Translations under genes and position numbers: made by a program
IMG/VR virus record: IMGVR_UViG_3300035698_025530
Location: 1 to 37,767 of that record
Strand: one strand, 5' to 3'
Length of the DNA: 37,767 nucleotides
Origin: a virus
The notes under the pieces: generated by a model
Told to the model about the DNA's origin: nothing
Seen by the model: the letters and a program-made list of their open reading frames with translations, nothing else
The model's database searches: none
Part shown: positions 8,728-18,759 of the stretch, one piece after another
Numbering within the stretch: the stretch's first letter is position 1
How the letters are laid out: each line of letters opens with the position of its first letter

Positions 8728-9114
8728 TTAAATATCACAATCCCAGCCACCATAGTAATAGCATGTAAATGTCACCACATCTCCGATATCCAACAATTCG
8801 GCAGCATATTTATCACTTTCAATAAATATTACATCACCATTCTGTATTGCTGTTACGTCTATCTCAGCCTCATTGTGTAGGGTTGAACTCGTAACTTCAA
8901 TCTCTAGATCTGTCATACACTTCTCCTCAACCTCTTCAATTATCACGTATTCGTCGAGAAACTCATCGTATTCTTCCCACTCAGTCCATGTTTCTTCACA
9001 AATGGTTTCAGCTTCTAGAATTCTTCCTTTTAATACTGTTCTCGTACTTTTCATACATCCACCCAATAAGAGGGACACCCCTAAGACCACGAGGAGGGTT
9101 TGTAATTTTTTCAT
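8728..9114 (-). CDS. Predicted lipoprotein
   Basis: A 128-residue protein with a classic type II signal: MKKLQTLLVVLGVSLLLGGC, where LGGC is the lipobox and Cys20 would carry the lipid. The mature part is small, acidic (EETWTEWEEYDEFLDEYVIIEEVEEKC) and contains further cysteines (for example ETICEE, EEKCM, TFTCYYYGGWDC), allowing disulphides. It would be anchored on the outer face of the cell membrane. The 5' end overlaps the thg1-like gene by 107 bases in another frame, which is long for an operon overlap. In a phage such a protein could be involved in superinfection exclusion or lysis; that is inference. Confidence 0.75.
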   Translation of the reverse strand: MKKLQTLLVVLGVSLLLGGCMKSTRTVLKGRILEAETICEETWTEWEEYDEFLDEYVIIEEVEEKCMTDLEIEVTSSTLHNEAEIDVTAIQNGDVIFIESDKYAAELLDIGDVVTFTCYYYGGWDCDI

Positions 9115-9814
9115 CTTTTTTGTTTGATAAATTAATTGTCTCTATATCTAAATGGTCCTCTATATAACCTCTGTCAGAAGTGAAAATAGGTGTCTTTTCA
9201 TCAACTTGCCAGATATCACTACTCTTTATACAGCACCTACCATAAATCTGCTTGTCAGTTAATGCTTCAAATTTCCCATCCTTCTTTTTGATCATGTCCA
9301 AAAGTTGAGGCACCTTCTTTCCTTGCAATTGTTTATGAGTGTATAGGGATTGAGCTAGCATCTGTACGGCATTCCTTTTCGCATCTTGTTGTCTCCAAAC
9401 GAAGTAATTTGCCACCTCTGACTCTGGAATAACAAAAGCTCTACTATCAAATAATACATCTGTTTTATATTGCATGGACATTTTAGCAGACGCTATAGCC
9501 GCACTAATACTGACAATTTTTTGAATGTCATTGTCAAACCAAGCCTGAGAATCAAGCTTTTTGTAATTGTGAAGTAATAGACTGATCTCATCGCTTTGAG
9601 TGTAACCAAAGACTGTTGTTTGAACTTTTTTGCATAGCAAAATCATAGTGTCGTTCAAAGCTTTTGTGAGATTCTGATCGAATGGCTTCTCCATTCCTCT
9701 TGTAAAAGTATGAAATGCCTTTCCATCCAAACGGATAATTACGGGCATTCTCGCTGGGAGCCTTAAGTCCCAAACCTTTTCATAATTGTGTTTCATTCTT
9801 TCTCCAATATTCAT
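9008..9814 (-). CDS. Thg1-like tRNA 5'-end (3'-5') nucleotidyltransferase
   Basis: A 268-residue member of the tRNA-His guanylyltransferase (Thg1/TLP) family, enzymes that add nucleotides to tRNA 5' ends in the 3'-to-5' direction. Visible are the palm-domain metal motif RLDGKAFHTFTRG (Asp30, Gly31), the second carboxylate motif TQSDEISLLL (Asp75, Glu76), and WRQQDAKRNAVQMLAQ, typical of the family. Bacterial and phage TLPs repair 5'-truncated tRNAs rather than make the His G-1. Two tRNA genes lie in the same transcription unit. The last 35 residues overlap the lipoprotein gene. The length fits a full Thg1; active-site residues appear intact. Confidence 0.88.
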   Translation of the reverse strand: MNIGERMKHNYEKVWDLRLPARMPVIIRLDGKAFHTFTRGMEKPFDQNLTKALNDTMILLCKKVQTTVFGYTQSDEISLLLHNYKKLDSQAWFDNDIQKIVSISAAIASAKMSMQYKTDVLFDSRAFVIPESEVANYFVWRQQDAKRNAVQMLAQSLYTHKQLQGKKVPQLLDMIKKKDGKFEALTDKQIYGRCCIKSSDIWQVDEKTPIFTSDRGYIEDHLDIETINLSNKKDEKITNPPRGLRGVPLIGWMYEKYENSIKRKNSRS

Positions 9815-9873
9815 AAATCTACGACTAAACTTATTATGAATAATTTAGCACAGAATAAAACAGAAGTCAAGGA

Positions 9874-10044
9874 CTACTTAAAATCATCCAAGGAGAATGT
9901 GCCAGGCTGTACTTTAAGGTCTTCCTTGAAATATCCATCTGAAGCCATTTTCTCTAGATTTTTTGCAAGATCTATATCGACCTTACTTTTTTTCTTCTTT
10001 TTCTTTACTTTCTTTTTTCCTATTATTGCTTTCTTGTATTCCAT
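9874..10044 (-). CDS. 56-residue basic small protein
   Basis: ATG 10044 to TAG 9874 encodes a protein with a poly-lysine N-terminus (MEYKKAIIGKKKVKKKKKKS) followed by a normal-looking acidic/amphipathic part, KVDIDLAKNLEKMASDGYF, ending VQPGTFSLDDFK. It overlaps the end of the C5-methyltransferase remnant by 62 bases in another frame. The ordered C-terminal half suggests a real gene despite the size. Function unknown. Confidence 0.5.
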   Translation of the reverse strand: MEYKKAIIGKKKVKKKKKKSKVDIDLAKNLEKMASDGYFKEDLKVQPGTFSLDDFK

Positions 10045-10483
10045 TGTTTTGATTAAACATTTTAATTATTATTGCTTGAACAACATTCACCGTCACAGCA
10101 TTTCCTAGGCATTTGTAACGCTGAGTATCGCTCAATCCTTCTGTCCATCCATCAGGGAACCCTTGTAGTCTTTCACACTCCGTTGGGGTCAACCTACGAA
10201 TACGTGCGTTCTCTTTGAGGAAGTGCTCTTTTGATTGGTTGGCTGTAATAGTTCCAGAGATGCCATCTTTACGTTCTACTAGTTTCTTTCCTCTTCTTGG
10301 GGAGAAATCTTTCCCTTTACTCAGGGATTCCTTTCGAATGCGTTTAGCTTCTTGAGTGGAGAGAGGTCTCTGTTCGTCCAACCACCCTTGTTTACTCCCC
10401 TTGGGATTTGGTACATCATTGTACGCTTGTCCGATTGCAAGTTCAAAACCACCAATCCCACTAAATAAGCTTAGATATTTCAT
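9983..10483 (-). CDS. C5-cytosine DNA methyltransferase, internally deleted
   Basis: A 166-residue protein that begins with motif I of C5-cytosine methyltransferases (MKYLSLFSGIGGFELAIGQA, the SAM pocket) and ends with motifs IX-X (RRLTPTECERLQGFPDGW and YKCLGNAVTVNVVQAI). Motifs IV (PCQ, catalytic Cys), VI (ENV) and VIII are absent: residue 20 jumps into YNDVPNPKGSKQGW. A normal enzyme needs 300-400 residues. It should therefore be unable to methylate DNA. Either it is a deletion derivative or it retains only a binding role. The ATG lies directly at the 3' end of tRNA-Gln (1 base between). The C-terminus is a charged Lys/Glu tail overlapping the next small gene. Confidence 0.75.
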   Translation of the reverse strand: MKYLSLFSGIGGFELAIGQAYNDVPNPKGSKQGWLDEQRPLSTQEAKRIRKESLSKGKDFSPRRGKKLVERKDGISGTITANQSKEHFLKENARIRRLTPTECERLQGFPDGWTEGLSDTQRYKCLGNAVTVNVVQAIIIKMFNQNNGIQESNNRKKESKEKEEKK

Positions 10484-10484
10484 A

Positions 10485-10556
10485 TTGCGGAACCTAGATT
10501 CGAACTAAGACTACACGGGCCAGAACCGAGCGTCCTACCAATTAGACTACTCCGCA
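10485..10556 (-). tRNA. tRNA-Gln (anticodon CTG)
   Basis: A 72-base cloverleaf on the minus strand: acceptor TGCGGAG / TTCCGCA (7 pairs, one G-T), D arm GTCTAATTGGTAGGAC, anticodon arm CTCGG-TTCTGGC-CCGTG with CTG at 34-36, variable TAGT, T arm CTTAG-TTCGAAT-CTAGG, discriminator A. CCA is not encoded. The U1-A72 pair is a tRNA-Gln identity feature; the A discriminator (usually G for Gln) and the mismatch at 28:42 are unusual. Its first 10 bases overlap the end of the phosphatase gene including the stop codon, and its 3' end touches the next ATG. Confidence 0.9.
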
Positions 10557-11251
10557 TTTGCGAAATGGAATTTTTCACTAGGCAGTTCTAAAACAGTTAA
10601 TTTATTACTTCTTGGAGGACAGACAGCAGTGTCGATCCCAATTTTATTATCCATTATGATTGGTTCAAAAGCTTCAAACGGGTTTTTATTATACTTCGCA
10701 GTAGCATCGGCTGTGTGGCCGAATATTACTTTCTTCCCCCAATCGTAGTTTGAATCGATGAACTCATCTCGTATCCATAGTCTATCATCTCTGGAGGTTT
10801 CTTGCACACTTTTTCCTGGTTTTACACCTGCATGTACAAATATATAGTCATCGTTTTCATAAAATGGCTCTAACTTGGCTAGAAATTCTATATGCTCTTC
10901 TGGGTATTTTGCTTCTTTTGGTGTTGAACTTAAGACTCTGCCATAATTTCTTTCTGTTACGTCCCCTCCGTTAATTTGCCAGCACATGGGAGCGTACACC
11001 GCGCATTGTCTGAAATAGAAGTCTCTAAACATGTCTTCGTGGTTCCCATCAAGAAAAACCCAGTGAGGATTTTCTGACTTCAGTCCTCTTAGATTTTCTA
11101 TCACTCTTTTTGAGTCTGGTCCACGATCAATGTAGTCACCCAAGAAGATAACCTGGTGTTCTTTTTTAATCGGGAGTTCTTTTAAAAGCTTTTCTAGTGG
11201 TTTGTAACAACCATGGATATCTCCAAATACCCATATTTTCTCGTACTTCAT
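10547..11251 (-). CDS. PP2A/lambda-phosphatase-like serine/threonine phosphatase
   Basis: A 234-residue metallophosphoesterase with the full calcineurin-like motif set: GDIHG (Asp11, His13), GDYIDRGPDS (Asp39, Arg43), GNHED (Asn70, His71), later VHAG and FGHT histidines. This closely follows the bacteriophage lambda protein phosphatase / PrpA family, two-metal (Mn/Fe) enzymes that remove phosphate from Ser, Thr or nucleotide substrates. Insertions are minor and length is normal. The start overlaps the dnaN stop by 4 bases (ATGA type), so the two are translationally coupled. The stop codon lies inside the tRNA-Gln gene. Confidence 0.88.
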   Translation of the reverse strand: MKYEKIWVFGDIHGCYKPLEKLLKELPIKKEHQVIFLGDYIDRGPDSKRVIENLRGLKSENPHWVFLDGNHEDMFRDFYFRQCAVYAPMCWQINGGDVTERNYGRVLSSTPKEAKYPEEHIEFLAKLEPFYENDDYIFVHAGVKPGKSVQETSRDDRLWIRDEFIDSNYDWGKKVIFGHTADATAKYNKNPFEAFEPIIMDNKIGIDTAVCPPRSNKLTVLELPSEKFHFANAE

Positions 11252-12351
11252 AGTCTCATTGGCATAATTAAATGGAAGTAACTTTCATCACCTTTATTAT
11301 CAAATCTAATAACGGCTAGCTCTGATTGAGTTGATATCTCAATTGTTTCTGCATCTGTACTACTAAGGAAGTGTCCCAAATACTTACCAGAGAGGGCTAG
11401 TGTTTTATCTTCTCCGTCGTATTCGACATCAACCTTACTTTCATTTTTTCCCAGATCACTCATTTTAGCCATTAGTTTCAATGAGTTTTTCTCTAACCTT
11501 ATGGTTATTTTATTCCCAAGTGTGTTTTTACCTATGATATTAGCAATTTTCAACGCACTTTCAAGCTCCTCGACGTTGACCTGTACTGAGATCGGTGTAG
11601 ATACTGGGATAACTCCCTTGTAATCTGGGAAACTACCCTGGATTTCACGTGCGATAATTTCTATTCCTGCGAAACTGAAATATGTCATGTACTTATCACT
11701 ATTGTAAACGGTAATCTCATCTGTATCAAACTCCTGGATAGCTTGGTTAACATTCAGAATGCAGTTTCTTGGCACTAAAATACCTTTTCTTGCAATAGTT
11801 TCTGATTTAACTGTGAGCTTTGATAGTCTACAACCATCTGCCGTCACAAAACTCATACTTTTGTCTTTTATTTCAAATTTCACTCCTTGCAGAACTGGTT
11901 TCACATCATCTGTAGCAGAAGCAAAGACCACCTCTTTGGCAACCCTTTGCAACGTCTCCTTTGATAGTGTAAATTTCTTCCACGATGTGTCGATTTCATC
12001 AAATTTAGGGAAATTATCTATTTCCATTGTATTAAGATCGACACTACTTTTTAACCCCTTTACCTTTAAAACCTTCCCAGCCATACTAAAGGATAAATTT
12101 TCTCCAGCTGTAAGTTTCACAAAACTCGAAAGCTGTGACGCTGATACGGTTGTAGCACCTTTTACAGCTACTTCGGCTGGAATGGACGCTCTAAATGTTG
12201 TCTCCATATCTGTGGCGACAATCTTTACATGATCCTCATAAGCTTCTAGAAAGAAGTTTGCCATGACTGGAACGCCAGCATACTTTTTAACTGCTCTGAT
12301 CCCGACGTTAACATACTTAATAAGCTCTTCTCGGTTTAAAGTGAATTGCAT
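11248..12351 (-). CDS. dnaN: DNA polymerase III beta subunit (sliding clamp)
   Basis: A 367-residue protein of normal beta-clamp length and three-domain pattern. Family signatures: the N-terminal MQFTLNREELIKYVNVGIRAV, VKIVATDMETTFRA, VTADGCRLSKLTV at the second domain, REIQGSFPDYKGVIP at the domain 2/3 junction, and the C-terminal FHLIMPMRL, which corresponds to the YVVMPMRL clamp end that helps form the peptide-binding pocket. It would form a ring on DNA tethering the polymerase. Sequence is divergent from typical host clamps. Its location among phage-type genes without dnaA or recF next to it argues for a phage-encoded clamp. Coupled with the phosphatase gene. Confidence 0.93.
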   Translation of the reverse strand: MQFTLNREELIKYVNVGIRAVKKYAGVPVMANFFLEAYEDHVKIVATDMETTFRASIPAEVAVKGATTVSASQLSSFVKLTAGENLSFSMAGKVLKVKGLKSSVDLNTMEIDNFPKFDEIDTSWKKFTLSKETLQRVAKEVVFASATDDVKPVLQGVKFEIKDKSMSFVTADGCRLSKLTVKSETIARKGILVPRNCILNVNQAIQEFDTDEITVYNSDKYMTYFSFAGIEIIAREIQGSFPDYKGVIPVSTPISVQVNVEELESALKIANIIGKNTLGNKITIRLEKNSLKLMAKMSDLGKNESKVDVEYDGEDKTLALSGKYLGHFLSSTDAETIEISTQSELAVIRFDNKGDESYFHLIMPMRL

Positions 12352-12368
12352 TTATACGGGTGATAAAT

Positions 12369-13418
12369 TTATATAGTAAAGACAGGACATTCTCTGCAAT
12401 TTGAGAGCAAATCGTGTCTGAATTTCAAAGTTTCTTTGTTGTACCACACATCAATACCAAAATCCTTAGCTCCAATTATAGGTACGGGTTTAAATCCACT
12501 TTCACCTTCACAAAAACTGCAAGGATAGACTTCACCTTTTACATTGATATAAATAGAAAACAAGGTTGATTCGCAAGGTTCTACTACTCGAAAGATTCTT
12601 TGTAATTCCTCATCACTAGTATCCTTGGGGATACTTTTAATAAATTTGTGTGCAGAACACGAATCAAATCCAATCCGAATGTCATTTCCAAGTGCGTATT
12701 CTACAAGTGTCTTGTATTTATTCTCTGATAGAATGTTGTATGTATTGCGGTTACCTTTCTCTTTCAGACCTAGAAAGACTATTGTGTTTAATTTCTCTAA
12801 TCGTGGATCTGTTTTAAAATCCTTCATAGCTTGCATACAACCATCATAGGTTTCCTCTGAAACAAGTGCGTGAATATTGATTTGTGTCATCCCTACATCA
12901 GTAAGTCTTTTAACAGCTCCATAACAAATATCTGTTGTGTAAAGCGAGACCGCCACAGCCCCACAATACTCCTTAAATTTCTTAGCTATTTCCTCTGTCA
13001 AACCGTAGCCATTGATTGTTAGGTTTGGTACTACACCCTTTTCTCTGCAATGTGCGAATATTTTAAACATGTCTGGGTTGCTATCAATATCCCCTATACC
13101 AAATGCAATTTGAGTGATTGTTTCTGGTAATTTCTCGAGAACCTTTTCAAATGTTTCTAGCTTCATATATTCACCAACAGCGTTGTTGGATTTATAACAA
13201 TGTGTACACGGAGTCGCAACTCCATCCGTAGGAACTCCATGGCAAGTTGTAGCGATCTCTATGTCTGCAATTTCTGGGCCGAAAGGACACATTTCAGGGT
13301 CGTCATCCTTTGTCTTCCCCCAACGGATAAAAAATCCAGTCTTTTTATCAAAGAATGAATTATATATTTCTGACGTCATGAATTTAGCTAATTTGTGGTC
13401 CCTTATTTCGAGTTTCAT
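12369..13418 (-). CDS. Radical SAM protein with unusual Cys spacing and SPASM-like end
   Basis: A 349-residue radical SAM enzyme. The cluster cysteines appear as Cys59 in TTCHGVPTDG and Cys71/Cys74 in TPCTHCYKS, giving CX11CX2C instead of the usual CX3CX2C; CTHCYKS aligns with the second and third cluster ligands. The following IAFGIGDIDSNPD and LTINGYG match the SAM-binding strands. The C-terminal part has further Cys groups (EPCESTLF, YPCSFCEGE, NCRECPVF), as in SPASM/twitch auxiliary cluster domains used in peptide or protein modification. No substrate is identifiable nearby, except possibly the small protein encoded just upstream. Likely co-transcribed with dnaN. Confidence 0.85.
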   Translation of the reverse strand: MKLEIRDHKLAKFMTSEIYNSFFDKKTGFFIRWGKTKDDDPEMCPFGPEIADIEIATTCHGVPTDGVATPCTHCYKSNNAVGEYMKLETFEKVLEKLPETITQIAFGIGDIDSNPDMFKIFAHCREKGVVPNLTINGYGLTEEIAKKFKEYCGAVAVSLYTTDICYGAVKRLTDVGMTQINIHALVSEETYDGCMQAMKDFKTDPRLEKLNTIVFLGLKEKGNRNTYNILSENKYKTLVEYALGNDIRIGFDSCSAHKFIKSIPKDTSDEELQRIFRVVEPCESTLFSIYINVKGEVYPCSFCEGESGFKPVPIIGAKDFGIDVWYNKETLKFRHDLLSNCRECPVFTI

Positions 13419-13434
13419 GTTTCTTTGTTTAAAA

Positions 13435-13840
13435 TTAAGCCATTTGTGTACCCCAGATTATCTTTGGAGCATCTCCTTTTTTAATCCCTAGCTCATCGCA
13501 AAGTGTCTTTATGTTCTCAAGCATTTCCGGTGTAATCTCTATTTTACTTTCACCAAGTTCCTCGTCGCAGCCTGTCTCCTCTAGTATTTTACCTATGACT
13601 GCAAAATTCCAATCACTTTCAACAAAGAAGTCTAGGCCGTATTTACTCTCTTTCCCTTCAAGCTCATATCTCAAATCAGACACGTCGTCGTCCTCAAGCC
13701 CATCAATTTGTTCGGCGTTTTTTGGATATAATGCTTTCAATATCTTCCTCTGAATTTTTTTATTGAATTCGATCTTAACACCGAACACTATAAAACTTGA
13801 TGTTGAACTTATTACTTACGAATCCATTGCGAATTTTCAT
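13435..13840 (-). pseudogene. Phage 'MKIRNGFVSN' small protein, one-base frameshift
   Basis: The open frame 13435-13788 (117 residues from GTG 13788) is acidic and of unknown function. The true start is ATG 13840: it has a perfect SD (AAGGTGG, 13845-13851, 4-base spacing) and reads MKIRNGFVSN, the N-terminus of a phage protein family that I recall continuing with a run of serines and then FIV. That frame stops after 21 codons (13775). Skipping one base (A at 13810) after the AAT codon gives ...VSN-SSTSSFIVFGVKIEF, joining it precisely to the long frame (134 residues in all). So there is a single-base insertion, a sequencing error or +1 frameshifting. The rest (LEDDDVSDLRYELEGKES...) is globular and acidic. 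Confidence 0.7.
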
Positions 13841-13844
13841 ATTT

Positions 13845-13851
13845 CCACCTT
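13845..13851 (-). promoter_or_regulatory. Ribosome binding site fixing the start at 13840
   Basis: AAGGTGG on the minus strand lies 4 bases before ATG 13840. It is one of the few consensus Shine-Dalgarno sequences in this arm and argues that the upstream MKIRNGFVSN frame is the translated start rather than GTG 13788. Confidence 0.75.
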
Positions 13852-13968
13852 TTTAACTTATTTTAAATATCTTACCATACTCCAAGCATGTTCGCAACTC
13901 CTATGGATAGCTTGCGGGTAGAAATAACTTATAGTAGAATTAATAAGTAAATTTATTGAGAAGAAAAT

Positions 13969-14349
13969 ATGTTTAAGATTACTTCAACTTGCAATGGTGG
14001 TGGTTATAAATATTGTAGAACAGAACCCTTCCATCCGAAGGGTAACTCAGCGGGACTCTATCCATTGCATAGGGTCCTTATGGAAAATAAGCTTAACAGG
14101 TTGCTCACAAAGTCTGAGGTTGTCCACCATAAAGACAGAAATAAAGAGAATAATCGGATAGAGAACTTGGAGGTTTTAACAAAGTCTGAACATGCGAAGT
14201 TACACAGGCAAAAGATCGACCCAATTGAGTGTGTGTGTGGGCGGTGTGGAAAGGTTTTCATGTTAAAACCCCATTGTTACAGGCTGAGGATTGGTAGGAA
14301 TAAATCCAAAAGAGTCTATTGTGGAAGAAGTTGCGGGGGCCAGATTTGA
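13969..14349 (+). CDS. HNH homing-type endonuclease
   Basis: A 126-residue protein with the phage HNH_3 signature: LHRVLMENKLNRLLTKSEVVHHKDRNKENNRIENLEVLTKSEHAKLHR, where HHKD, N and H are the catalytic and metal residues. The C-terminal third has CVCGRCGK and CGRSCGGQI pairs, a possible zinc finger for DNA recognition. Such genes are selfish homing elements. It is the only plus-strand gene in the leftward arm, and its 3' end overlaps tRNA-Met (opposite strand) by 19 bases, so the last residues are read through the tRNA. ATG follows AT-rich DNA; TATAGT at 13930-13935 is a plausible -10. Confidence 0.88.
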   Translation: MFKITSTCNGGGYKYCRTEPFHPKGNSAGLYPLHRVLMENKLNRLLTKSEVVHHKDRNKENNRIENLEVLTKSEHAKLHRQKIDPIECVCGRCGKVFMLKPHCYRLRIGRNKSKRVYCGRSCGGQI

Positions 14350-14404
14350 ACTGGCGACCTTCGGTTTATGAGGCCGATGAGCCTTACCACTGCTCCACCC
14401 CGCA
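14331..14404 (-). tRNA. Initiator-like tRNA-Met (anticodon CAT)
   Basis: A 74-base cloverleaf on the minus strand: acceptor TGCGGGG / CCCCGCA, D arm GAGCAGTGGTAAGGCTC with the A11-U24 pair typical of initiators, anticodon arm TCGGC-CTCATAA-ACCGA, variable AGGTC, T arm GCCAG-TTCAAAT-CTGGC, discriminator A; no encoded CCA. The sequence strongly resembles bacterial initiator tRNA (CGCGGGGTGGAGCAG... AAGGTCG... CCCCCGCAA). Deviations: a U1-A72 pair instead of C1xA72, and the third G-C pair of the anticodon stem replaced by C31-A39. Ile-CAT (lysidine) is an alternative but fits less well. Confidence 0.9.
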
Positions 14405-14433
14405 TCACATTAATTGTACCACAGAATAAAAAT

Positions 14434-15942
14434 CTAGACAAGCTTGTTCCTTGAGAATGTGTTCGGGTCTTTAAGTGCGTCGACAAGCACCATTGTGGCT
14501 ATACAATCGTCCTCATTATAAAGTAGAATCCTATTTAAGATATCCTCGTCTCTACTGTCGATATAGTCATTGAACCACCTAATTGATAGTGCTCCAGATG
14601 GAGTTTTATCTCTCCAGCTGAAATCTAGGAACTGTGCAAGAGCTTTAATGGAGTAACTACTCAGTGGCCAATCTGTATATGGTAGAACAATATCTGAGTA
14701 TAAATCGACAACCTGTGTGAGTCGATATAGGTCGTGAACTTCTTGTACAGTAGTAATTTTGGGGTATTTTGCTGCTAGTCTCTTGTAGTAAGTTTCCTCA
14801 TGTGCAGAATAATAGTAAATAGCAAATTCACTCGGGTCGTAAGAACAGATAAATTCCCAAGAATCCCTCCAAGCTTTTTCCTCTGCTTCATTTGTCATTT
14901 CAGTTGCAACAAATGCCTTGAACTCTTCCTTTTTGGTTTTATTGTCTCGCACATAAAACCCATGCATGTAAACAAAATCCTGTGTAGGGTCGTCTTCAAT
15001 ATCAAAAAATAATTCATATCTAACATCTGGGAGTGAAAAATCTTCATACTTGACAGGTTTTGAGGAATTTTTGAGAACGTTGGCTCTATTGTAGATAGAC
15101 TCAAGGGTCTTTCTCCCTATACCCTTTAAAAACTCTTTATTGTTAGATTTGACTTCTAATAACCGTTCAATATCGAGGTCAAGGAATTCACTTATACTAC
15201 TGACATTTGTGTCCTCCAGTATCGTATCACGAACTGTTCTACCAACGTAGAAAACCTTGGTGAGGTCATCATTTTCTACTACCCAATTCTTACAACTTTC
15301 ATACCATGGACACATTTTACAGGACCCAGCCAATGCTGGAGTCGTGTTGTCCTTCATCTGCTTAATAAGTAGAACTTTCCCTTTAAGCTCTAGGTAGTAC
15401 TCCCAGAAAGATTGATGCGTTCTAGAGCCTATAGGGCTCGTTAGATCGTAAGTTATTGAGTCACCTGTGATGTCGATTATATCGGCAGTCCGCTCGTTAG
15501 AAAATCCTAGGAATTCAAGTAATTCCTGGTATAGACACAATTGAATTGCATACTCCTTTTTATACTTGATATAGTTTCCCCTCTCTTTAGTTGCTGTACC
15601 CGATTTCACGTCCACTGCTTTATATCTATCACCATCTAAAATGAGAAGATCTGGGATTCCACACATGTATTTGTTTTGTAACACTCCTTGGTAGATCACA
15701 GGCTCTCTTGACTTCATTGCCTCCATCGTTTCCGCAAATCGCCACACTAAATTTCCCTTCCTGAGGTCCAAGACCTTGTCAAAACTATTGAGGATTTTCT
15801 CTTCGTGTGTGACACCTTTCTCCCACAGGAGCTTCATAAATTCATTGTCACCAGTACCTTTCTCTCTCAACGAGCTATGACAATCCCTCCACACTCTGTG
15901 TGGGCATATCATATAACTGTATAAATCTTGTGCTGTAATCAT
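14434..15942 (-). CDS. RecB/Cas4-like nuclease fused to RNase-H-like exonuclease (TM0106-type)
   Basis: A 502-residue two-domain nuclease. Residues 1-220 form a PD-(D/E)XK domain of the Cas4/RecB type: GIPDLL (Asp98), AVDVKSG (Asp111, Lys113), QLCLYQ (Gln134) and four cysteines for a 4Fe-4S cluster (Cys13, Cys208, Cys211, Cys217 in SCKMCPWYESC). Residues 245-290 look like helix-hairpin-helix (LLEVKSNNKEFLKGIGRKTLESIY). Residues 305-500 are an RNase_H_2/DEDD-like domain (YELFFDIEDDP with Asp314 and Glu316, DLYSDIVLP, YNEDDCIATMVL). The same architecture is found in bacterial 'TM0106 family RecB-like putative nucleases'. A role in phage DNA processing or host DNA breakdown is likely; no cas genes or CRISPR array are nearby. 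Confidence 0.88.
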   Translation of the reverse strand: MITAQDLYSYMICPHRVWRDCHSSLREKGTGDNEFMKLLWEKGVTHEEKILNSFDKVLDLRKGNLVWRFAETMEAMKSREPVIYQGVLQNKYMCGIPDLLILDGDRYKAVDVKSGTATKERGNYIKYKKEYAIQLCLYQELLEFLGFSNERTADIIDITGDSITYDLTSPIGSRTHQSFWEYYLELKGKVLLIKQMKDNTTPALAGSCKMCPWYESCKNWVVENDDLTKVFYVGRTVRDTILEDTNVSSISEFLDLDIERLLEVKSNNKEFLKGIGRKTLESIYNRANVLKNSSKPVKYEDFSLPDVRYELFFDIEDDPTQDFVYMHGFYVRDNKTKKEEFKAFVATEMTNEAEEKAWRDSWEFICSYDPSEFAIYYYSAHEETYYKRLAAKYPKITTVQEVHDLYRLTQVVDLYSDIVLPYTDWPLSSYSIKALAQFLDFSWRDKTPSGALSIRWFNDYIDSRDEDILNRILLYNEDDCIATMVLVDALKDPNTFSRNKLV

Positions 15943-15970
15943 GTGGAGATCTTACCACATTTGCGGTAAA

Positions 15971-16009
15971 AATAAAAGTGGCGAAGGAAATATGAGAAAA
16001 ACCTTCGCC
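15971..16009 (-). terminator. Rho-independent terminator
   Basis: GGCGAAGG and CCTTCGCC (15980-15987 and 16002-16009) form an 8-base stem; in minus-strand sense the stem is followed by ACTTTTATTTTT. It lies downstream of the 67-residue ORF and upstream of the nuclease gene. A second inverted repeat (GTTCTT / AAGAAC, 16015-16037) precedes it. Confidence 0.7.
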
Positions 16010-16071
16010 GAGGAGTTCTTGAAGATATCTTAAGAACACCATATTATAGGTTTTACCATAGTTACTGTCAA

Positions 16072-16275
16072 CTAAAGGGGATGTTCCTCAGGCATTGACA
16101 TCATAACTAATGTCACGTCTTTTAGCCTCGCCTCTTTCTTCGCAGTATATTCAATAATTGGGAATATTGCCATGTTTGATTCGAGTCTTTCTAACTCCAA
16201 TGTTTCCTCCTCTGTTTGAGGGATTAATTTAACATGACAAGCTTCTTTATCTGTATAAATTAATTTTGCTTTCAT
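16072..16275 (-). CDS. Small acidic hypothetical protein
   Basis: A 67-residue protein (MKAKLIYTDKEACHVKLIPQTEEETLELERLESN... ending EEHPL) with an acidic helical middle, EEETLELERLES. It is the first gene of the leftward arm, divergent from terL across a 51-base gap, and is followed by a terminator. That position is common for phage regulators, but no HTH or other motif is visible, so no function is assigned. The ATG is preceded by AT-rich DNA without an SD. Confidence 0.6.
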   Translation of the reverse strand: MKAKLIYTDKEACHVKLIPQTEEETLELERLESNMAIFPIIEYTAKKEARLKDVTLVMMSMPEEHPL

Positions 16276-16326
16276 AATTTATGATAACACACAGCAATTA
16301 TGTAGTAAAGATTATTTGCTCAGATT
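16276..16326. promoter_or_regulatory. Divergent promoter region between early and late arms
   Basis: This 51-base AT-rich gap separates the leftward arm from terL and must contain or closely adjoin both transcription starts if neither comes from further away. TATGAT near 16280 and TATGTAGTAAAGATTAT (about 16300-16316) are possible promoter elements; the latter resembles sequences at 13930 and 27595. No clear -35 box or operator repeat is seen. Confidence 0.3.
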
Positions 16327-18759
16327 ATGGGTTTATCTTATAGTATTGTTGTGGATATACAGTTAAATGATATTGAAAAATTGATTGAGAAATGGAAGGG
16401 AGATCCTATAGCATTCGTTAAAGAAGCATTAAGGGTTGAACCAGAGAAGAATCAAGCAGAGATTTTAAAGGCATTGCCAGAAAATCACTTTATCGCTATA
16501 AAGTCAGGCCATGGAGTGGGTAAATGTTTTGGCGTCGGGACGGTAATTTTGATGCATAGTGGGGATGCGAAAAAGGTGGAAGATGTCGTTGTTGGAGATC
16601 TTCTAATGGGTGATGATGAAACGCCAAGGAAAGTTCTATCAACTGCGGCTGGAAACGAGCAGATGTATCGCATAAAATATAAGAGTGGTGAATATTATGA
16701 CGTGAATGAGTCACACATTCTTAGTTTGGTTGCATCGCAAACCCATGGAAGGCAAAAGCGTGGTGATATAACAAATGTTTCTGTTAAGGAATACTTAACA
16801 TGGAGTAGAAGAAGACAAAGGACAAATATTGGTTATAAGATGTCCTGTAGATTTAGCGAAAAGGAACTTGGAATTGACCCATATATATTGGGGGTTTGGC
16901 TCGGTGACGGGACAAGCGTTGCTCCAGAGATAACCAATATAGACCAGCCCATACTGGATGCTTGGTATGAAGATTGCGAGGGTAGGGGAATGATTATGAA
17001 AAGGTACAGAGAAATTTCATACTACATGACTAGGAATACTGAGGTTGGGCAAAGGCAAAATAACATGATGAATGATTTACGTTTTTACGATCTAATTGGA
17101 AACAAACACATTCCAAAGATATACAAGACTTCTTCTATTGATCAGAGGTTGGAATTGTTAGCTGGATTACTAGATTCCGACGGGTACTTAGGTACTAGCT
17201 CTTTTGAAATTATACAGAAAAATAAACAGTTAGCAGATGATATTGTTTGGGTGGCACGTTCGGTGGGGTGCCACGCTACGATTAGGGAAGTACAAAAATC
17301 ATGTAAATATAAGGGTGAGAAGAGAGTGGGGACTTATCATCGCGTTTTTATTAGTAGAAACGTAGACCGTATCCCTACAAGAATAAAGCGGAAACAGTAC
17401 AGACCAATCACTAAGCAAAGGTGCCGATTACACTATGGGTTTGATGTTATCCCCCTAGGAGTTGGGACATATTACGGCTTTGAAATTGATGGTAATGGCT
17501 TATTTGCATTGAATGATTTTACTGTAACGCACAACACGACTTTGCTATCTTGGATAATTTTATGGTTTATTACATGTTATTCGGATGTGAGAATTCCGTG
17601 TACAGCACCGACGGAGGCTCAATTGACTACTGTGTTATGGCCAGAGGTGAACAAATGGCTACAGAATTCGTTTTTAAGGGACATTGTTACTTGGTGGAAG
17701 ACTAAAATCTTCTTTACTGGGAATGAAAAAGGGTCTTTCGCACTTTTTAGGGCTGCGAGAAAACCAGAAGCGTTAGCAGGATTCCATGCAGACAACATTC
17801 TTTTCCTAGTCGACGAGGCTAGTGGTGTGGATGATCCTATATGGGGACCTATAGAGGGGGCTTTAACTGGTGAGAATTCCAGAGCGATTGTCGCAGGGAA
17901 CCCTACGAGGGCAGAAGGTAATTTCTATAGATGTTTCACAGATGATTCCAAATATTGGAAACACTTTACAATCAACTGTGAGGACAGTGATCGTGTAAGT
18001 AAAACATACATAGAGAGAATGAAAAGTAAGTACGGAGAGGATAGCGACATGTATCGTATCCGTGTTAAGGGTGATTTCCCAGAGATGTTGGGTAGTACAT
18101 TCATACCATTCCATTTATGTGAAAGAAGTCGTGGTTCTGACGTATTTGAGGGTGGAAGAAAAAGGCTTGGTGTTGACCCTGCTGGTAGTGGTGGAGATTA
18201 TGCCGTGTGGCTTATTAGGTGTGGTGGAAAGATAATACATGTGGAAAGACAGCAAATAACAGATCCTATGCAGGTTGCAGGGAATACAGTTCGGTTGATT
18301 AGGCAGTTTAATCTCGATGCTGGTGATGTTTTTGTTGATAAAATTGGTGAAGGCTCAGGGACTGTTGCACGTCTTATAGAGTTAGGTTATAATGTTATTG
18401 GTGTAAACGTAGCTCTCCCTGTTCCAAGGGAGGAAGACAAAGAGGTTTACTCAAACATTAGAGCTTGGCTTTATGGGATGGTCAGAGACGAATTACAGGC
18501 GAATAGGCTTAACCTTACTGTTCCAAATTCCCGTGAGTACACGGAGGGTTTGTGCGGTGAGTTAGCAAGTCCTAGATTCAAGTTCTCGTCTAAGGGCCAA
18601 TATGTTTTGGAAAGTAAAAGGGATATGAAGAGCAGGGGTGTGAGTAGTCCTGACATCGGAGACGCATTAGCACTAACGTACTATGAGTCAATTGATGGGG
18701 ATGCATCTCCAATGTTTTGGAGTCCTGGAAGTTTTAATTTACGTGATGATGATTTCTAG
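16327..18759 (+). CDS. terL: Terminase large subunit TerL containing an intein
   Basis: 810 residues: a 473-residue TerL interrupted by a 337-residue intein (residues 67-403). The extein halves join as KSGHGVGK-TTLLSW, a perfect Walker A. Walker B is LFLVDEASG (Asp496, Glu497), the coupling motif region is VAGNP, and the RNase-H-like nuclease carboxylates are Asp617 (GVDPAGSGGDYA), Asp671 (VFVDKIGEG) and Asp776/Asp779 (SPDIGDALAL). TerL is the ATP-driven motor that packages and cuts phage DNA. It starts the rightward structural operon; no TerS is recognised. Without splicing the P-loop is split, so the motor should be inactive. Portal follows 2 bases after the stop. Confidence 0.93.
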   Translation: MGLSYSIVVDIQLNDIEKLIEKWKGDPIAFVKEALRVEPEKNQAEILKALPENHFIAIKSGHGVGKCFGVGTVILMHSGDAKKVEDVVVGDLLMGDDETPRKVLSTAAGNEQMYRIKYKSGEYYDVNESHILSLVASQTHGRQKRGDITNVSVKEYLTWSRRRQRTNIGYKMSCRFSEKELGIDPYILGVWLGDGTSVAPEITNIDQPILDAWYEDCEGRGMIMKRYREISYYMTRNTEVGQRQNNMMNDLRFYDLIGNKHIPKIYKTSSIDQRLELLAGLLDSDGYLGTSSFEIIQKNKQLADDIVWVARSVGCHATIREVQKSCKYKGEKRVGTYHRVFISRNVDRIPTRIKRKQYRPITKQRCRLHYGFDVIPLGVGTYYGFEIDGNGLFALNDFTVTHNTTLLSWIILWFITCYSDVRIPCTAPTEAQLTTVLWPEVNKWLQNSFLRDIVTWWKTKIFFTGNEKGSFALFRAARKPEALAGFHADNILFLVDEASGVDDPIWGPIEGALTGENSRAIVAGNPTRAEGNFYRCFTDDSKYWKHFTINCEDSDRVSKTYIERMKSKYGEDSDMYRIRVKGDFPEMLGSTFIPFHLCERSRGSDVFEGGRKRLGVDPAGSGGDYAVWLIRCGGKIIHVERQQITDPMQVAGNTVRLIRQFNLDAGDVFVDKIGEGSGTVARLIELGYNVIGVNVALPVPREEDKEVYSNIRAWLYGMVRDELQANRLNLTVPNSREYTEGLCGELASPRFKFSSKGQYVLESKRDMKSRGVSSPDIGDALALTYYESIDGDASPMFWSPGSFNLRDDDF
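16525..17535 (+). mobile_element. Intein with LAGLIDADG homing endonuclease, in the TerL P-loop
   Basis: In-frame insertion within TerL. Splice features: N-terminal Cys67 (CFGVGTVILMHSGDAKKVEDVVVGDLL, block A), block B GEYYDVNESHILSL, block F/G YYGFEIDGNGLFALNDFTVTHN with penultimate His402 and Asn403, and extein Thr404 as nucleophile. Two LAGLIDADG helices are present: GVWLGDGTS and LLAGLLDSDGYL, each with its catalytic acid, so both splicing and homing functions look intact. The insertion falls between Lys and Thr of the Walker A lysine-threonine pair, a favoured intein site in ATPases. Confidence 0.95.

Follow-up and report, generated by a model that had tools for sequence, protein, structure and literature searches.

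A Thg1-like polymerase in a phage genome and its relation to two nearby tRNA genes

Why do phages encode a polymerase that runs in the reverse direction? The question is raised by IMG/VR record IMGVR_UViG_3300035698_025530, a linear virus record of 37,767 bases, possibly a fragment, the whole of which is here called the window. Terminase, portal, capsid and tail genes lie on its right side; the left side is a block of mostly leftward genes that includes a gene for a Thg1-like protein (TLP) and genes for a tRNA-Gln and an initiator-like tRNA-Met. The initial annotation had placed these in one leftward unit and proposed a phage system that re-makes tRNA ends. The window locus by itself does not answer the question. 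Comparison with other phages suggests three things: the coupling between TLP and tRNA genes is not tight, the encoded 5′ ends of tRNAs in TLP-bearing phages are no less sound than in other phages, and an explanation through tRNA-His is weak. Together, these observations point to a repair role for the tRNA pool in general. The reading favoured here, with a probability of roughly 0.55, is that the TLP is a general tRNA 5′-end repair enzyme, acquired independently as an accessory gene, and that the two tRNAs are separate cargo. The features concerned are as follows.

9008..9814, minus strand: TLP, 268 residues (from the list of open reading frames (ORFs), Pfam, PHROG, structure match and alignment)
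9842..9870, minus strand: promoter-like element before the TLP gene (TTGACT, 17 nt, TAAATT, with TG ahead of the second hexamer; consensus match only)
10485..10556, minus strand: tRNA-Gln, anticodon CUG, U1-A72, U28-U42 mismatch (ARAGORN, Rfam)
14330..14404, minus strand: tRNA-Met, initiator-like, anticodon CAU, U1-A72, C31-A39 mismatch (ARAGORN, Rfam)
14413..14441, minus strand: promoter-like element before the tRNA-Met gene (TTGTCT, 17 nt, TACAAT; consensus match only)
13969..14349, plus strand: HNH endonuclease gene, overlapping the 3′ end of the tRNA-Met gene by 20 nt

The Thg1-like protein

The assignment of the gene at 9008-9814 (minus strand) to the Thg1/TLP polymerase family was borne out. 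Its product matched the Pfam family Thg1 (PF04446) with an E value of 5.7e-28 (97.9 bits, against a curated cut-off of 29.2) and phrog_4717 with an E value of 9.2e-75, and its best solved relative was the TLP of Bacillus thuringiensis (BtTLP; 4kgk, E 2.8e-56), aligned over residues 2-221. The core extends over approximately residues 2-222 and is followed by a 46-residue tail to which most relatives match poorly; the gene shares its final 107 nt with the next ORF. The window protein was aligned with 39 phage relatives, three of which are near-copies of others (the short L040 was excluded), and R28, D30, D75, E76, K99, D123, R125, N136-D144 and N148 were identical in all 40 rows. The catalytic carboxylates have thus been kept: D30, D75 and E76 are the conserved carboxylates of BtTLP, for which repair activity is described and in which R28 is reported to matter for the incoming nucleotide (PMC3701042), and the window protein has all four residues at the same residue numbers. 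These comparisons support well the prediction that the TLP is intact and able to repair tRNA 5′ ends, the role that the initial annotation had assigned to it and which its homology favours. Family, domain, carboxylates and Arg28 are common to the window TLP and BtTLP as described there; the window protein differs in being phage-borne, in its 46-residue tail and in having isoleucine at position 190, where the 39 phage rows have lysine or arginine.

A tblastn search of 50,697 phage records found TLP-type genes in 126 of them; the presence of a TLP in a phage is therefore nothing new. The core of the window TLP is 44-46% identical to five phage TLPs (those of Staphylococcus phage PMBT8 and Bacillus phages FADO, G, Goe8 and BSP38), with which it belongs to the phage tRNA-His guanylyltransferase family phrog_4717. 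No partner gene was seen to recur in its IMG/VR relatives. It differs from phages with this family in that the window has no megablast match (bases 1-24000) and has tRNA genes near its TLP, whereas 29 of 40 TLP loci have none. No near relative of the window phage was found by DnaN, by portal protein or by DNA (megablast of bases 1-24000 only, against the phage collection). In the TLP tree the window protein grouped with four phage TLPs with weak support (90/72); the records of those four contain 0, 1, 1 and 11 tRNA genes.

The general idea that phage Thg1 proteins serve as anti-defence RNA repair is already in print. RNA repair that counters host defence was put forward in 2010 as a possible role of phage Thg1 (PMC2904730), restoration of 5′ ends by the Thg1 of jumbo phages was raised in PMC7824862, and phage Bc431v3 is described as having 20 tRNAs and a TLP (PMC3601020). 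The role proposed for Thg1 in the phage RNA-repair sets discussed in PMC7824862 and PMC2904730 (polynucleotide kinase, RNA ligase, CCA enzyme and Thg1), restoring tRNA 5′ nucleotides, is the same as that considered here. The window differs from those sets in that no RNA-ligase, kinase or CCA-enzyme domain was found among the ORFs scanned, which were part of the ORFs of a record that may be a fragment. Among the open-licence papers listed, none indicated an experimental test of a phage TLP in its title or the start of its abstract.

TLP and tRNA genes across phages

If the TLP served the tRNAs encoded beside it, the two might be expected to occur together. Thirteen named large phages with a TLP (TLP+) were hand-picked among 60 of the 126 tblastn matches, and 15 without one (TLP−) were taken from a thymidylate synthase search by working down its ranking, among 60 rows spread over 3794. 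tRNA genes were present in 10/13 TLP+ and 13/15 TLP− phages (p=0.64; medians 9 and 8), the search of the TLP+ phages having used stricter Infernal filters. The three TLP+ phages without a tRNA match were PMBT8, phiA009 and Vibrio phage 1.170.O, the last a partial genome. Among IMG/VR records, 30 of the 40 with a TLP had tRNA genes, and seven of the ten without were shorter than 60 kb. Pooling IMG/VR and named phages, both small samples, gave p=0.35; TLP and tRNA content were thus not significantly associated across these phages. Records with a TLP and no tRNA genes exist, as do tRNA-rich records without a TLP, a pattern that the initial annotation had named as counting against its proposal, although truly close relatives of the window phage were not among them. 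None of the 36 virus records that served as GroEL-selected controls (from 80 loci) had a TLP.

The neighbourhood of the TLP gene was no more consistent. With flanks of up to 10 kb, the 40 TLP loci mostly lacked a tRNA gene, and no neighbouring gene family was present at more than 8 of the 37 loci compared (L006, L025 and L029 excluded). A CCA enzyme was encoded in 10/40 TLP+ records, two of them near-copies, a count made in TLP+ records only.

Both tRNA genes were recovered where the initial annotation had placed them, by ARAGORN and by Rfam model RF00005 (53.6 bits for tRNA-Gln(CUG) and 59.7 for tRNA-Met(CAU), cut-off 29), and both begin with U1-A72. That pair had been read as odd; it is present and is no defect, the acceptor stems being fully paired. 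The D and T stems are also paired, and each tRNA has a single mismatch in the anticodon stem. The tRNA-Gln, whose gene shares its first 10 nt with the end of the phosphoesterase ORF upstream, has a cloverleaf and a Gln anticodon, and U1-A72 is the commonest pair in phage tRNA-Gln (14/23 distinct sequences from TLP+ records and 6/7 from TLP−). The 5′ ends were compared more widely using chosen tRNA clusters from 19/40 TLP+ and 8/36 control records; these included the near-copies G027 and G028, so the counts were repeated on distinct sequences, and ARAGORN discards badly paired tRNAs in both sets alike. Mismatches at acceptor positions 1-3 occurred in 30/465 TLP+ and 11/156 TLP− tRNAs (p=0.85), or 30/455 and 11/155 distinct sequences. 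Because these rates are equal, and the window tRNAs have no mismatch at positions 1-3, 5′ tRNA editing of the mitochondrial type was rejected.

With no excess of mismatches alongside the TLP and no recurrent neighbour, the proposed system of TLP and these tRNAs was not supported: there is no clear sign, as far as gene content and tRNA sequences indicate, that they form a dedicated system. The explanation judged most likely is that the TLP is a template-dependent 3′-5′ nucleotide-adding enzyme that would rebuild damaged or over-trimmed tRNA 5′ ends during infection. Its substrates would probably be the whole tRNA pool of the cell, host and phage alike; bacterial and archaeal TLPs are reported to favour 5′-truncated tRNAs in vitro and to act on several tRNAs (PMC6471195). 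As encoded, the acceptor stems of the window tRNAs are sound and leave nothing to edit, and the tRNA genes may be separate cargo that supplements the tRNA pool, the TLP being an accessory gene with a probable origin of its own. Activity, substrates and benefit to the phage are inferred.

Several observations weigh against this reading. The window TLP has a branch length of 1.36 in the tree, compared with a median of 0.55, and, together with Ile190, this long branch makes a weakened or shifted function possible. The TLP and tRNA-Met genes are preceded by a shared promoter-like element (see below). Among IMG/VR records of at least 60 kb (near-copies G004, G024 and G027 excluded), 24/27 TLP+ records but 7/12 GroEL-selected controls had a tRNA gene (p=0.08), and median tRNAs per 100 kb were 10.0 and 1.7 (p=0.11); this excess leans towards a link and is not significant. 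Some named TLP genes also lie near annotated RNA-repair genes, cases for which there is no control set; in phage Yeet, for example, a polynucleotide kinase gene begins approximately 0.6 kb beyond the TLP gene.

The tRNA mismatches and alternative explanations

The anticodon-stem defects noted in the initial annotation are real, being U28-U42 in the tRNA-Gln and C31-A39 in the tRNA-Met, but such mismatches are frequent: they occur in 115/610 (~19%) distinct phage tRNAs (86/455 TLP+ and 29/155 TLP−). Mismatches within pairs 28-31 are rarer (42/599 phage tRNAs), and both window tRNAs have one there. Two of two would be expected in ~0.5% of cases if independent; as a post hoc figure this is a mild anomaly. 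One explanation is that the tRNAs are drifting passengers, their stem mismatches the result of decay, and that the HNH gene settled beside the tRNA-Met. The inner-stem mismatches of both tRNAs and the overlap of the HNH gene with the 3′ end of the tRNA-Met are consistent with this, as is the eroded methyltransferase gene adjoining the tRNA-Gln (9983..10483, described below). The paired acceptor, D and T stems and Rfam scores well over the cut-off count against decay, and we regard it as unlikely.

A second explanation is that the tRNAs are spares, selected to withstand host tRNA-cutting toxins (in the case of the tRNA-Met, a VapC-type nuclease), with no need of the TLP. An enteric VapC is reported to cut initiator tRNA between A38 and C39 (PMC4105405), and both 31 and 39 are altered in the window tRNA-Met. 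Phage tRNAs have been proposed to bear mutations that confer insensitivity, and, where VapC is present, phages are reported for the most part not to encode tRNA-fMet (both PMC10264068). The window tRNA-Met is nevertheless a single case: an exact search with its anticodon arm found no other viral contig (the arm of the tRNA-Gln was found in 4 contigs). Of the initiator-like tRNAs collected without a pattern that fixes 31:39, two more (those of L149 and L157) have something other than G31-C39, though in both it is a standard pair. We know of no toxin cut site at the 28:42 mismatch of the tRNA-Gln. Selection by toxins is improbable as the origin of these tRNAs.

Initiators are marked by formylation features and by three G-C pairs, 29:41, 30:40 and 31:39 (PMC7949028). 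The window tRNA-Met shares with bacterial tRNA-fMet the formylation features G2-C71, C3-G70 and A11-U24 and the pairs G29-C41 and G30-C40; it differs in having C31-A39 for G31-C39, for which reason it is termed initiator-like only, and U1-A72 for a mismatch. A takeover of translation start, which the initial annotation thought conceivable, would thus be conjectured for a tRNA that lacks one of the three initiator G-C pairs. In the initiator tRNA of Escherichia coli, positions 1 and 72 form the mismatch C1xA72. The weak U1-A72 pair was also seen in 10/42 initiator-like tRNAs at loci L294-L373 of a scan for A72, some of them prophage-junction or host sequence; loci above L373 were pattern-selected and hence not counted as unselected. 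A loose initiator pattern matched 0/13 TLP+ and 0/15 TLP− named phages, which says little.

Position 72 also varied in other records. U72 was present in the initiator-like tRNAs of 9/12 TLP+ and 0/5 TLP− records (p=0.009; post hoc and hand-tallied), as C1-U72, U1-U72 or A1-U72 (L129, L132, L136, L138, L145, L149, L152, L154 and L161). The window tRNA-Met has A72 and is outside this group. In the reverse test, made on records of at least 30 kb among the 80 loci listed for each scan, 7/50 U72-selected and 0/34 A72-selected records had a TLP (p=0.04); two of the seven (G023 and G026) came from the TLP+ set that had prompted the idea, which limits the independence of the test. At lengths of at least 80 kb (hand-tallied) the counts were 7/22 and 0/8 (p=0.14), and all four U72 records above 300 kb carry a TLP, so size and lineage confound the link.

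In a third explanation, the TLP would act on the tRNAs that the phage itself encodes, foremost the tRNA-Met, with which it would be co-expressed. Of the leftward unit described in the initial annotation, the shared strand is what the sequence shows; the HNH gene lies between them on the opposite strand, and TLP and tRNA-Met have separate promoter-like elements. Those elements match, sharing the exact 12-mer TTTTATTCTGTG between their hexamers at the same spacing; these are its only exact copies in the window, and both elements reach a combined score of 59, compared with 43 for the runner-up site. With up to two mismatches, the 12-mer occurred 6 times against 8.3 expected from shuffles, which is chance level. 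Recurring 12-mers make up 524 of 74,982 in the window, and promoter-like sites in 1-18000 numbered 67, slightly above the 54.1 (sd 6.6) of shuffles. Rhodococcus phage Weasels2 has a reminiscent layout, with phosphoesterase, tRNA-Met, TLP and 2′-5′ RNA ligase within 4 kb; its tRNA-Met has G1-C72, however, and so looks like an elongator. The lean of TLP+ IMG/VR records towards more tRNAs fits such a dedicated role, while the ten TLP+ IMG/VR records and three named TLP+ phages with no tRNA gene, and the lack of a recurring neighbour, do not, leaving it quite improbable.

The family name suggests that the TLP might add G-1 to host or phage tRNA-His. This G was not encoded in 2/14 tRNA-His genes of TLP+ phages, compared with 0/6 of TLP−; it was encoded in the other 12/14 (10/12 distinct; 'tRNA-???' rows excluded), the window has no tRNA-His (ARAGORN), and most bacteria are reported to encode G-1 themselves (PMC6471195), all of which makes this role very improbable. 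In the two exceptions, L148 and L154, no G is encoded at -1 even though they have C at position 73.

Least probable of all is a pair of coordinated answers to attack on translation start, expressed from the matching promoters, in which a change at the 38/39 bond would protect the initiator tRNA from cleavage by VapC-type toxins while the TLP repaired tRNA 5′ ends. More generally, the initiator-like tRNAs of TLP phages, with their unusual 1:72 positions, could on this reading be natural substrates for templated A1 addition.

Neighbouring genes

Three further features adjoin the TLP and tRNA-Gln genes.

10547..11251, minus strand: calcineurin-like phosphoesterase (Pfam, PHROG, solved relatives)
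9983..10483, minus strand: C5-cytosine methyltransferase remnant (Pfam match to profile positions 235-323 of 324, and an N-terminal motif by eye)
8728..9114, minus strand: ORF with a lipoprotein-like start (by eye), overlapping the tail of the TLP gene in another frame

The phosphoesterase was considered as an RNA-repair phosphatase and set aside: the solved relatives shown are mainly Ser/Thr-type phosphatases, though one PHROG that it matches, in its phosphoesterase-like portion, bears the name RNA ligase (phrog_8238). Codon compensation by the tRNA-Gln(CUG) was likewise a weak candidate, CAG being used at 13.8 and CAA at 18.3 per thousand codons in 21 window ORFs.

Elsewhere in the window, a GroEL-type chaperonin is encoded at 6440-8065, and a radical SAM protein with a SPASM domain, from a phage family without known function (phrog_7293), at 12369-13418. 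The terminase large subunit ORF (16327-18759) contains an intein-like region with Hint and homing endonuclease parts. At the head of the leftward block, at 16043-16071 on the minus strand, there is a perfect consensus promoter (TTGACA, 17 nt, TATAAT; 12/12).

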